Shown piece after piece: positions 35,511-57,165 of a stretch of DNA of 64,000 bases (positions are counted from its first letter, which is position 1; every line of letters begins with the position of its first letter). The stretch lies in assembly GCF_012927745.1 (NCBI RefSeq), contig NZ_JABBKX010000005.1, positions 1 to 64,000 of the forward strand. The letters are read 5' to 3'. Both the position numbers and the translations under genes were made by a program. Source of the DNA: Neoroseomonas marina. GTDB lineage: Bacteria > Pseudomonadota > Alphaproteobacteria > Acetobacterales > Acetobacteraceae. Below the pieces are notes generated by a model. The model saw only the letters and a program-made list of their open reading frames with translations, was not told the origin of the DNA and made no database searches.

Positions 35511-35596
35511 CCAAAGGCCGAAAGGCCTTTGGAAGCCGGTTTGCAAAGGCCTTTCGGCCTTTGCCGGGGTGGCTTGGAGGGGCAGCGCCCCTCCAA
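35511..35596. repeat. paired palindromic repeat (family C) between ruvC and ruvA
   Basis: Three consecutive perfect hairpins lie here: 35511-35532 (CCAAAGGCC-GA-AAGG...), 35543-35564 (GCAAAGGCC-TT-TCGG...) and 35574-35596 (TTGGAGGGGC-AGC-GCCCCTCCAA). The first two are inverted copies of one another. The block is the same repeat family as at 24623, 54760 and 59912. Confidence 0.75.
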
Positions 35597-53760: not shown

Positions 53761-54747
53761 ATGCCGGACGGTGACACGACACGCCAGGGACGCACGCTGC
53801 GCAGCGCCCGCGCCCTGCGCGAGGCCGGGCTGATCCCCCCCGCGGCCGAGGCCGCCGCCGCGCGCGTCGCCGAACGGTACGCCATTTCCGTCACGCCCCA
53901 CGTCGCGCGGCTGATCGACCCCGCCGACCCGGCCGACCCCATCGCCCGGCAATACATCCCCGACGCCGCCGAACTGGCGACCGCCCCGCACGAGGTCGAC
54001 GACCCCACCGCCGACGGCCCCTTCACCCCGGTCAAGGGCGTGGTCCACCGATACCCGGACCGGGCGCTGCTGAAGCCGCTGCTCGCCTGCCCCGTCTATT
54101 GCCGCTTCTGCTTCCGGCGCGAGGTGGTGGGCCCCGATGGCGGCCTGCTGACCGAGGCGGAGCTGGACGCCGCGCTGGCCTGGTTCGAAGCCACGCCCGC
54201 GGTGAAGGAGGCGGTGCTGACCGGGGGCGACCCGCTGATGCTCTCGCCCCGCCGGCTCGGCGCGATCCTGGCCCGCCTGGCGGCGGCGGCGCATATCGAG
54301 ACGCTGCGCATCCACACCCGCGTCCCGGTCGCCGACCCGGGGCGCATCGACGCCGCCATGGCGGCGGCGCTGGACCAGGACAAGCCCGTCTTCCTCGCCG
54401 TCCATGCCAACCATGCGCGGGAATTCACGGCCGAGGCGCAGGACGCGCTCGCGCGCCTCGCCCGCGCAGGCGTGCCGCTGCTGGGCCAGACGGTGCTGCT
54501 GCGCGGGGTGAACGACAGCCCCGAAGCGCTCGAGGCGCTGTTCCGCGCCATGATCCGCGCGCGGGTGAAACCGTATTACCTGCACGCGCTGGACCCCGCG
54601 CCGGGGACCGCGCGCTTCGCGGTGCCGGACGAGGACGGGTTGGCCCTGCTGCGCGCGCTGCGCGGGCGGGTGCCGGGGCACGCCATCCCGGACTTCGTGC
54701 GGGAACGCCCGCAGGGCGGGGGGAAGAGGCCGGTCGGGCAGGCGTGA
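53761..54747 (+). CDS. epmB: EF-P beta-lysylation protein / lysine 2,3-aminomutase-like radical SAM enzyme
   Basis: EpmB converts (S)-alpha-lysine to (R)-beta-lysine, the substrate of EpmA. It has 328 residues; the radical SAM cluster is CPVYCRFCF (C110, C114, C117), followed by EAVLTGGDPLMLS and THVPVADPGRID-like sequence (TRVPVADPGRI). The PLP-binding lysine is in RVKPYYLHALD. ATG 53761 was chosen; the frame opens at 53725 but the family starts later. It faces epmA, with efp 1.85 kb downstream beyond a foreign-looking gene, and it ends at a family C hairpin. Confidence 0.94.
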   Translation: MPDGDTTRQGRTLRSARALREAGLIPPAAEAAAARVAERYAISVTPHVARLIDPADPADPIARQYIPDAAELATAPHEVDDPTADGPFTPVKGVVHRYPDRALLKPLLACPVYCRFCFRREVVGPDGGLLTEAELDAALAWFEATPAVKEAVLTGGDPLMLSPRRLGAILARLAAAAHIETLRIHTRVPVADPGRIDAAMAAALDQDKPVFLAVHANHAREFTAEAQDALARLARAGVPLLGQTVLLRGVNDSPEALEALFRAMIRARVKPYYLHALDPAPGTARFAVPDEDGLALLRALRGRVPGHAIPDFVRERPQGGGKRPVGQA

Positions 54748-54759
54748 GGGTGACGCCGC

Positions 54760-54805
54760 GGGGGCGCCGCCCCCGGACCCCCGCCGAGGGCCGAAAGGCC
54801 CTCGG
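54760..54805. repeat. single intergenic palindromic repeat (family C) after epmB
   Basis: Two adjacent hairpins, GGGGGCGCCGCCCCC (54760-54774) and CCGAGGGCC-GA-AAGG... (54784-54805), match one arm of the family C elements at 24623, 35511 and 59912. Here the element is unpaired and lies 13 bases after the epmB stop, a place suited to a terminator. Confidence 0.7.
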
Positions 54806-54879
54806 AACCCGATTTTCCGCCCTTGGGCCATGGGGGCGCTATTTCAGGCGCCAGCGGCGGCGGTTGCCGGCGGAGCTAC

Positions 54880-56590
54880 TATGAAGGTCTCACTAGACTG
54901 CCCTTGTGCAGGGCTGGGACTTACAGGGATGACTTGTGTTTCACTTCATCAATTCGTCAGCCTATTAATGCCAATTGCTCGTTCGATCTGCTTACGAAGA
55001 TTTATCAATCCCCTGTTTTCACTCGGAGTCGTTGGTATAGTAAGAGGTTCAAGGCCATCAAACCCTTCCGCAGCTTCAAGTCTAATGTGTTTGTTGTGAG
55101 ATTTTTCAACGTATCCGTGCTGCCGAAGCAATGACACCAGTTCACTGGCAACACGCCTAGGGTCCTTAGTGGCTCGTTCTAGATCGCGAGATAGCTCGCT
55201 CAGCGCCGGCGCGACGCGAAGTCGTTCGACAACTCGCCCCAAGATCGATTTCGTTCTCCCATCAAGTCCAATTTGATCTGCAATATCTAAAGTCATTTTA
55301 GCAGCAAAACGCAATCTATCAGAAATTTCTCCAAGATATATTTCAGGCCCAAGTTGACGAGCGAAACCCTCCTCTTCAAAATCGCTGTCACTACGCCCAA
55401 CATTAACATCTGCATGAGCACTAATTTGTCGCTCTAACTCTCCGATTTTATCTTGAAGATTTTCAATCTCTTCCAAATAAAGTCGTTCATTTTCTGCGGC
55501 GGTAAGTCTCTTCTTTTCGCGCTCACGATGAGCACGAAGTGCCTGCTCCTGCAGTTCAGTCCAGTCCCAACCAAAGGCTGGCATTTGGCTACGCATACTA
55601 GAAGCCGCCGCCCGAACTGCAACCGATAGATCCTTCCCGCCCTGCATCTGCCATCGCAAATAGTAACGCTTGACTATCCCAGCACCGGGGGCCGAGAGCC
55701 CCAATGTCCCGCCGTAGACGTTTCGCCCGTCGCTTTCATTGCGGAGCCGGAGAGAAAATGCGCGATTTGGCTCGACGACAACATGAGCGACGCCACCCAA
55801 ATCGTATGCTAATTTCTCGATCTCTCTGCGATTCAAAATCCAGCGATTATTATCAGATGCAGAAATATATAAAATAGGAAGCCATCTTGTTGCCTCACCG
55901 AGCGTTATTGCCTTAGCTGTTTCTAAGCTCTTCTTGTTTTCTTTTAGCCAAAACGGCTGATCGGATATTGATAAGAGATTGTCGTTACCACCCCACCCAT
56001 TCTTCAAAAGCGACTTAACGAGGTAAGGTTTGCGCGGGCTTTCCAAATGCGCCCCGGGCGTTCTCGCGAAGCATTGGGTACGAAGACGTACAAGTTCCTG
56101 CGCCCCTACCCCGGCAGAGCGCTTCAGGACACCTTCCGTTCTCCAGAGTCTCCCCTCTTCGTCAGGAAAGTCGTGCCGAAAGCCAACCGCGCTCCAGTCG
56201 TCTCCGTCACGAAGTTCCCGAAGGCGCAATTCTTCTCCAGTCGGGGATCGCAGATGTGCGTTCTCGCCATCCAATTCCGCTTCAGCGCCCAAAGCTAGAA
56301 CTGTGCTGTAAGATGTTCCCTGTAACCAAGCGATCACCTCGGCGACAAAAGCAGCGCGGCTTGATGCCGGCTTCAAAGGAAATTCTGTCGAGAACGGGAG
56401 CATATTGAGAGCATTGGCGCTCGACGCCCGCCGGTCAACGTCGAAGTAAGGAGCGCCGTAGTGACGGGGTGGCAACACCGGTTGCTGCCTTGGAGGCCTA
56501 TCTGCAGCCGCCTAGGATGGAGCCCAGTTGGGTTGCTGATCGCAGTCCGACGTTGTATCGCCCTCGCCTCTCTCACACGAACGCCCGGAC
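54880..56590. other. AT-richer insert between epmB and efp (probable horizontally acquired segment)
   Basis: From about 54880 the sequence abruptly changes from very GC-rich to markedly AT-richer, with runs such as TATTAATGCC and AGAAATATATAAAATAGG that are absent elsewhere. It returns to normal composition just before efp at 56599. The insert holds one gene on the minus strand. No insertion sequence, tRNA or clear direct repeats mark its ends, so it may be a gene exchanged at a hotspot by homologous recombination through its flanks. Confidence 0.8.
54949..56478 (-). CDS. unknown multidomain protein with coiled coil and HicA-like C-terminus; candidate foreign gene
   Basis: This 509-residue protein has codon use and base composition clearly unlike its neighbours. 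N-terminal 30-190 has no motif I know. About 195-275 (PILYISASDNNRWILNRREI, LAYDLGGVAHVVVEP, YGGTLGLSAPG) is a compact alpha/beta domain. Residues 305-355 form a coiled coil. About 445-504 (SLLRQHGYVEKSHNKHIRL, then LTIPTTPSENRGLINLRKQI) resembles HicA/YcfA proteins, including the S-H-x-x-H strand. It has no signal or membrane helix. GTG 56478 is the longest start; ATG 56403 (MLPFSTEF) is an alternative. It lies alone, antisense to epmB and efp. The function is not known; a defence or toxin-like role is a guess from context. Confidence 0.8.
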   Translation of the reverse strand: MLPPRHYGAPYFDVDRRASSANALNMLPFSTEFPLKPASSRAAFVAEVIAWLQGTSYSTVLALGAEAELDGENAHLRSPTGEELRLRELRDGDDWSAVGFRHDFPDEEGRLWRTEGVLKRSAGVGAQELVRLRTQCFARTPGAHLESPRKPYLVKSLLKNGWGGNDNLLSISDQPFWLKENKKSLETAKAITLGEATRWLPILYISASDNNRWILNRREIEKLAYDLGGVAHVVVEPNRAFSLRLRNESDGRNVYGGTLGLSAPGAGIVKRYYLRWQMQGGKDLSVAVRAAASSMRSQMPAFGWDWTELQEQALRAHREREKKRLTAAENERLYLEEIENLQDKIGELERQISAHADVNVGRSDSDFEEEGFARQLGPEIYLGEISDRLRFAAKMTLDIADQIGLDGRTKSILGRVVERLRVAPALSELSRDLERATKDPRRVASELVSLLRQHGYVEKSHNKHIRLEAAEGFDGLEPLTIPTTPSENRGLINLRKQIERAIGINRLTN

Positions 56591-56598
56591 CCGACCTC

Positions 56599-57165
56599 AT
56601 GGCAAAGATGCAAGCCAACCAGATGCGTGCCGGCATGGTCATCGAGTTCGAAGGGGCTCGCTACACCATCCTCAAGCAGAACATCATGATCCCGGGGAAG
56701 GGCGCGGCGGTCATCCAGGTGGAGATGCGCAACGTCAAGACCGGCGCCAAGAAGGACCAGCGCTGGCGGACCGCCGACACGGTCGAGCGCCTGACCACCG
56801 AGGACAAGGAGTTCACCTACTCCTACACCGACGGCACCAACCTGGTGCTGATGGACCCGGAAAGCTTCGAGCAGACCATGGTCCCGCAGGACATCCTCGG
56901 CGACCGCCTGCCCTATCTGCAGGAGAACATGACGGTCAACGTCAAGCTCATCGAGGGCGAGCCCGTCTCGATGGACCTGCCCGAGACCATCGTGCTCGAG
57001 GTGGTGGAAGCCGATCCGGTCGTGAAGGGCCAGACCGCCTCTTCCTCCTACAAGCCGGCGGTGATGTCGAACGGCGTGAAGGTCATGGTGCCCCCCTTCA
57101 TCACGGCGGGCGAGAAGATCGTCGTGAAGACCGCCGACGGGACCTATTACGAACGCGCGAAGTAA
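56599..57165 (+). CDS. efp: elongation factor P
   Basis: EF-P relieves ribosome stalling at consecutive prolines. It has 188 residues and three beta domains. The modified residue is lysine 34 in IPGKGAAV, the position that EpmA and EpmB beta-lysylate; other features are NVKTGAKKDQRWRTADTVE and the C-terminal TAGEKIVVKTADGTYYERAK. ATG 56599 was chosen, although the frame is open upstream. With epmA and epmB close by, the organism has the complete bacterial beta-lysyl-EF-P pathway (the hydroxylase EpmC is not in view). A proline-rich TolA and YebC in the same window give it likely clients and company. Confidence 0.97.
   Translation: MAKMQANQMRAGMVIEFEGARYTILKQNIMIPGKGAAVIQVEMRNVKTGAKKDQRWRTADTVERLTTEDKEFTYSYTDGTNLVLMDPESFEQTMVPQDILGDRLPYLQENMTVNVKLIEGEPVSMDLPETIVLEVVEADPVVKGQTASSSYKPAVMSNGVKVMVPPFITAGEKIVVKTADGTYYERAK

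Follow-up and report, generated by a model that had tools for sequence, protein, structure and literature searches.

A HicA-headed gene between epmB and efp of Neoroseomonas marina as a candidate single-protein anti-phage system

In Neoroseomonas marina (assembly GCF_012927745.1), a single long minus-strand open reading frame (ORF) occupies the interval between two flanking genes, which we take to be epmB and efp, and the locus raises the question of what such an AT-rich gene encodes and what brought it there. The window analysed is the whole stretch of 64,000 nucleotides at positions 1 to 64,000 of contig NZ_JABBKX010000005.1 (forward strand). An earlier reading made from the letters alone (the sequence-only reading) had proposed an undescribed single-gene defence or toxin-like system with a HicA-like C-terminus and a possible link to translation. 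Here, the reading that the gene, as a member of a mobile family, encodes a one-protein anti-phage system acting by abortive infection is given a probability of roughly 55%; judged by profile comparison, the gene is probably an unrecognised cousin of HEC-07, a known candidate anti-virus gene.

Architecture of the protein and its relation to HEC-07

The AT-rich gene is real and foreign. Its guanine-cytosine (GC) content is 0.503 against a contig mean of 0.709 (standard deviation 0.036 per kb); only 7 of the 3,405 one-kb windows of the whole 341,498-base contig fall below 0.52, and 54701-56700 is the sole segment below 0.55 in such windows. The composition edge, placed earlier at about 54880, lies close to position 54873, where the match with the nearest relative's core DNA (G021, locus L138) stops. 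A search with the protein in 99 genomes recovered the gene in its own genome only, the 98 other relatives lacking it, which agrees with the foreign gene proposed by the sequence-only reading.

The gene had been regarded as an orphan, a label that did not hold, relatives being encoded at 37 genome loci and 21 viral-contig loci. When only the window protein served as query, the genome collection yielded 33 pattern matches and no relative; a three-sequence alignment (A1) was needed to reach the relatives. After partial, frameshifted and duplicate loci had been dropped from these genome and viral-contig loci, 37 members were aligned (A2). The truncated member L013 was kept in A2 and left out of the C-terminal sets.

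A structure model of the whole protein (mean pLDDT, the predicted local distance difference test, 85) contained both the alpha/beta domain and the coiled coil anticipated from the letters (Table 1) and closed with an alpha-beta-beta-beta-alpha unit. In the fold search with this C-terminus the five best structural rows were HicA, and the PADLOC HicA profile matched it as well; the HicA-like segment proposed earlier was thus recovered by two routes, and the C-terminus is predicted to fold as HicA. When PDB chains were searched by sequence, whether with the protein, its HicA segment or the C-terminal and HicA-segment profiles, no HicA was among the hits, so that the assignment rests on fold and PADLOC profile. 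The HicA toxin fold is dsRBD-like, and His24 of Burkholderia pseudomallei HicA is a functional histidine in the turn between strands 1 and 2 (PMC3969222). H439 of the window protein is the first residue of the second strand; its equivalence to His24 was drawn by position, not from a printed structural alignment. Two weak, unnamed PHROGs families also matched the head (E 0.009 and 0.014).

The middle domain has a thioredoxin-like fold, and a CXXC redox motif was found in 0 of 37 members (the window protein has one cysteine). The window protein contained no Walker A motif and no NERD match; a chance-like Walker A match occurred in one of the 37 members. Two other assignments were rejected: a Bet v1/START-type N-terminal fold, for which the best Foldseek rows had template modelling (TM) scores by query of 0.12-0.17 and root-mean-square deviations of mostly 7-10, and a KaiC-type Pfam match (PF06745, E 0.004, below cut-off), which lies on helices without a Walker A motif.

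HEC-07 is a PADLOC candidate (models PDLC04158-04161), placed among the Hma-embedded candidates of Payne et al. 2024 (via PMC12988326); several Hma-embedded candidates have antiviral activity (PMC12988326), and the available text of that source yielded no statement on HEC-07 itself. The window protein gave a partial, low-scoring match to the HEC-07 models (24 bits, residues 80-218), and PDLC04161 and PDLC04159 matched 22 and 14 of the 37 members, respectively (best E 3.9e-15). A search with PDLC04161 matched 9 of 398 genomes, with four full-length HEC-07 proteins (L144-L147), the more distant L149, two members of the present family, L148 and one weak match. Profile comparison of the family with five HEC-07 proteins gave 98.6% (E 6.5e-16, 289 columns); part by part, the N-terminal profiles matched at 91.6% and the thioredoxin-like profiles at 97.2%, and the C-terminal parts gave no match. 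Because the first two parts match and the C-terminal parts do not, the profiles indicate a chassis common to the family and HEC-07, with different heads. In L148, the HEC-07 C-terminal domain stands behind another N-terminal part, which suggests that this head is mobile too. A chassis search for a third head type matched 4 of 48 genomes, all with HEC-07 proteins already seen, and thus yielded no such head; a PDLC04159 search of 20 relatives gave no match, and its controls were silent too, hence it was uninformative.

The epmB-efp interval, the homologues and the gene start

The interval was compared across 35 genomes of the genus. In 13 of them (the window genome among these) the two flanking genes share a contig and lie no more than 15 kb apart; the others, in which one flanking gene was lacking or the flanks lay on different contigs, were unused. 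All 12 other bridged genomes (L128-L139) have an interval of 2.2-14 kb with a different AT-rich block shortly upstream of efp, and none has an empty site. For 10 of the 12 genomes, one hand-chosen cargo protein per genome (10 of 19 ORFs in all) was scanned against PADLOC. Six of the ten matched at 1e-3 or better (a retron reverse transcriptase, an OLD/AriA-type ATPase, PDC-M07A, NsnA, a mad8-like ATPase and, weakly, a TIR effector) and four had no match; in a control made with every third entry of a list of 30 window proteins, PADLOC matched 0 of 10. Pfam, run on 10 of the 19 cargo ORFs, added PIN_8, HARE-HTH and a deoxyribosyltransferase-type protein in three further genomes. The interval is therefore a variable and probably defence-rich hotspot in the genus, and the defence-type context suspected by the sequence-only reading was found both in this cargo and in the prophage settings of the homologues. 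Among interval ORFs of at least 90 residues, the size range covered, no separate HicB-like ORF was seen, in line with the earlier statement that an antitoxin gene is absent.

Several side observations concern the interval. One cargo gene (L137:244-1725, genome G010) encodes a transglycosylase-domain protein without PADLOC match and does not look like defence. Cargo extends close to the efp start codon, so that the region upstream of efp differs among genomes. In the nearest relative, a transporter and a short transposase-like gene (named by eye) lie between epmB and the cargo; the window (54759-54873) lacks the transporter and seems to retain, next to the cargo, no more than the final codons of the transposase-like gene. 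An interspersed hairpin motif, GGCCGAAAGGCC, is present 6 times in the 341-kb contig, where base shuffles give 0.05; the copies include those at window positions 35516, 54789 and 59955, and one copy marks the hotspot's left edge.

When the three-sequence profile was run on a wider draw from the phylum, 4 of 398 genomes, own genome included, carried the gene. By record title the members belong to Alpha- and Gammaproteobacteria, and single metagenome-assembled genomes with a member are from Verrucomicrobiota, Humidesulfovibrio and Defluviitaleaceae; homologues range from Alphaproteobacteria to Firmicutes, with identity within the family falling to about 20%. The family is under purifying selection: the ratio of nonsynonymous to synonymous substitution rates (dN/dS) was 0.06-0.18 in 9 of 15 pairs, dS being saturated in the other 6, which include all three window pairs. 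At least six loci (L018, L023, L025, L026, L027, L066) carry a frameshift, a stop or an interruption that breaks the gene, a pattern to be expected if such genes are costly or of use only at times.

The earlier proposal to search for homologues and inspect their neighbours led to single genes, often in prophages and in some cases on small plasmids. A close copy was present in 24 of 5426 E. coli genomes, always on the chromosome. All six E. coli contexts examined were lambdoid prophages, in which the gene is opposite in strand to its neighbours, with ybcN (incomplete in one case) on one side and the ren/P/O genes on the other; ren was named in five of the six. At 8 of 28 other loci a convergent phage gene lies 13-18 bases from the family gene; the three such neighbours scanned were head-decoration genes, followed by head protease and portal genes. 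A tblastn search of phage records gave no match with the window protein or the E. coli member. Plasmid matches comprised 8 records; in 6 of them, from Skermanella and from five Klebsiella plasmids of 5.9 kb, the match spanned 80% or more of the query; the one 5.9-kb Klebsiella plasmid examined was typed as mobilizable ColRNAI. A shortened member (L004:11099-11947) lies on a Citrobacter ColRNAI plasmid with a carbapenemase gene and insertion sequences.

The long ORF of the sequence-only reading stood, and its length of 509 residues is probably 25 codons too great, the start being probably ATG 56403 (484 residues) and not GTG 56478, given the starts of homologues, their upstream stops and the promoter-like look of the conserved upstream stretch. 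The Skermanella homologue (52% identical, the nearest plasmid homologue) starts at the codon equivalent to residue 26 of the 509-codon reading, other full-length members likewise start at the matching codon, and in several close homologues a stop codon sits just upstream of it. Of the 24 alphaproteobacterial members, 16 have TTGAC upstream of the ATG, in 15 of them at exactly -35 and in one at -34; the eight without it are L002, L011, L013, L020, L022, L028, L029 and L031. In eight divergent TTGAC-bearing members, whose 100 upstream bases average 0.32 identity, TTGAC stands at -35 in 8 of 8, a count unmatched at any offset in 20,000 shuffles and flattered, since the eight were picked for having the motif. 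Most members have a 17-base spacer and a -10-like hexamer after TTGAC. Among 18 further upstream sequences (3 of them from the 24 alphaproteobacterial members), TTGAC at -35 was found in none. From the spacing of the elements, many alphaproteobacterial members would share a promoter that predicts a transcription start on or next to the ATG, and thus a leaderless mRNA.

Table 1. Features of the epmB-efp interval and of the encoded protein (window positions)
Feature	Position	Strand	Remark
epmB-efp interval	54748-56598		
Variable part of the interval	54873..56598	.	left, end of L138 similarity; right, efp start codon
HicA-headed gene, 484 codons from the probable start ATG 56403	54949..56403	(-)	
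TTGACC, -35-like element	56433..56438	(-)	exactly 35 bases before ATG
AATGCT, -10-like hexamer, weak match	56410..56415	(-)	17-base spacer after -35-like element
N-terminal beta domain, residues 1-115	56059..56403	(-)	model; homologous to HEC-07 N-terminal domain (profile comparison 91.6%)
Thioredoxin-like domain, residues ~127-274, no CXXC	55582..56025	(-)	homologous to matching HEC-07 domain
Long helices/coiled coil, residues 281-332	55408..55563	(-)	model
Helical segment, residues 344-411, linking coiled coil and head	55171..55374	(-)	models
HicA-like head, residues 418-477	54973..55152	(-)	PADLOC profile and fold
H439, at the place of HicA's functional histidine	55087..55089	(-)	conserved 36/37

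Proposed function and competing explanations

Where the gene lies, which lineages carry it and how its protein is built are all consistent with a mobile defence system of one gene. In the proposed mechanism, the N-terminal beta and thioredoxin-like domains would act as a sensor chassis common with HEC-07, and the coiled coil would probably form a dimer. Since no HicB was seen, inhibition in cis is suggested, in which the helical segment or the chassis would do the work of a HicB antitoxin and keep the HicA-like head inactive. Sensing of a phage cue by the chassis would then free the head; its HicA character suggests RNA cleavage and translation arrest, so that the freed head would cut RNA and translation would stop in the infected cell. 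RNase activity, toxicity and phage restriction are putative properties of the window protein. Two points weigh against this mechanism. At position 437, two before the histidine and corresponding to Gly22 of HicA, the 37 members have Asn (20), Gly (16) or Ser (1), the window protein having Asn, and the glycine is therefore not kept in most members. Moreover, a prophage HicAB of Pseudomonas putida, a canonical one, was toxic without defence (PMC12894663).

A broader version, taken as a whole, is held more tentatively and at less than even odds. In it, the family and HEC-07 would be cross-phylum one-protein phage sensors, built from a beta and redox-dead thioredoxin-like chassis with exchangeable heads (HicA here, another in HEC-07); in the HicA branch, the pocket that reads the phage cue would be lined by the thioredoxin-like domain's invariant Tyr, Ser, His, Glu and Asn; and the alphaproteobacterial leaderless mRNA from a fixed promoter may be translated when normal initiation fails.

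It is unlikely that the gene is instead a self-contained toxin-antitoxin or addiction unit, whose N-terminal part would be a cis antitoxin and which would stabilise prophages and small plasmids without phage defence. A HicA head without HicB, members on 5.9-kb mobilizable plasmids and in prophages, and published fused HicA-HicB proteins (PMC10865869) would all suit such a unit. The chassis, however, is homologous to the defence candidate HEC-07, which has another C-terminus, and, as far as the scans show, not to HicB; the window copy, too, lies on the chromosome, in an interval that holds defence-type cargo and has no plasmid or prophage to stabilise.

Equally doubtful is a head that serves as an RNA-binding dsRBD-like module without nuclease, the protein being a regulator or another anti-host or anti-competitor factor of prophages. 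The dsRBD-like fold of HicA (PMC3969222), the absence of Gly22 from most members and the thioredoxin-like domain without redox motif are in its favour, whereas H439 is retained in 36 of 37 members despite the low identity within the family. A housekeeping or translation-factor accessory role as partner of EF-P or EpmB, the link raised by the sequence-only reading from the position between epmB and efp, was rejected as very improbable, since the gene occurs in only its own among the 99 genomes searched, the same place holds different cargo in all 12 other bridged genomes (efp thus looks like a landing site only, and its neighbourhood incidental), and homologues lie elsewhere in phage and plasmid DNA.

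Comparison with known systems

The gene ties HEC-07, a poorly understood candidate, to a family with a recognisable effector, and it offers a testable mechanism, an antitoxin-less HicA head under control of a sensor chassis. Two sites for seeking defence genes also emerge, the epmB-efp interval in this high-GC genus and the ybcN-ren/P site of lambdoid prophages. The term 'undescribed' of the sequence-only reading survived for the domain combination and not for its parts: the first two domains belong with HEC-07, and C-terminal HicA/coiled-coil fusions are published. No description of the chassis with a HicA domain was found in the literature, supplementary tables lying outside the search, so that an earlier description is possible. 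A literature search on 'HEC-07' gave only unrelated work, and the PADLOC papers examined name neither HEC nor HicA.

The HicA toxins of HicAB type II modules are proteins of 50-100 residues with a neighbouring HicB. The window gene differs in both respects, HicA being the C-terminal head of a 484-residue protein with no HicB seen, and it has Asn in place of Gly22. The class 14 HicA fusions ('SMC-HicA') are published with C-terminal HicA and coiled coils (PMC10865869): they share with the window gene a C-terminal HicA behind a coiled coil, a single-gene arrangement and a proposed defence role. They are called SMC proteins, some with NERD, whereas the window protein is without a Walker A or NERD match; this separation is by description only, and membership may overlap (PMC10865869).

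DefensePredictor work in E. coli includes one validated system with a HicA mRNA interferase domain, and DS-3, an antitoxin-less one-protein RNase thought to be auto-inhibited (PMC13092281). The former resembles the window gene in its HicA domain and the latter resembles the antitoxin-less one-protein RNase proposed here; the validated HicA-domain system may or may not be of the present family, which is the main threat to novelty. HEC-07 differs in its unrelated C-terminal domain, in not keeping the family's invariant thioredoxin-like-domain residues and in that its PADLOC models do not match the window protein over its full length. It is alike in being a single protein of about 480-560 residues whose N-terminal domain, thioredoxin-like domain and coiled-coil region align with those of the family.
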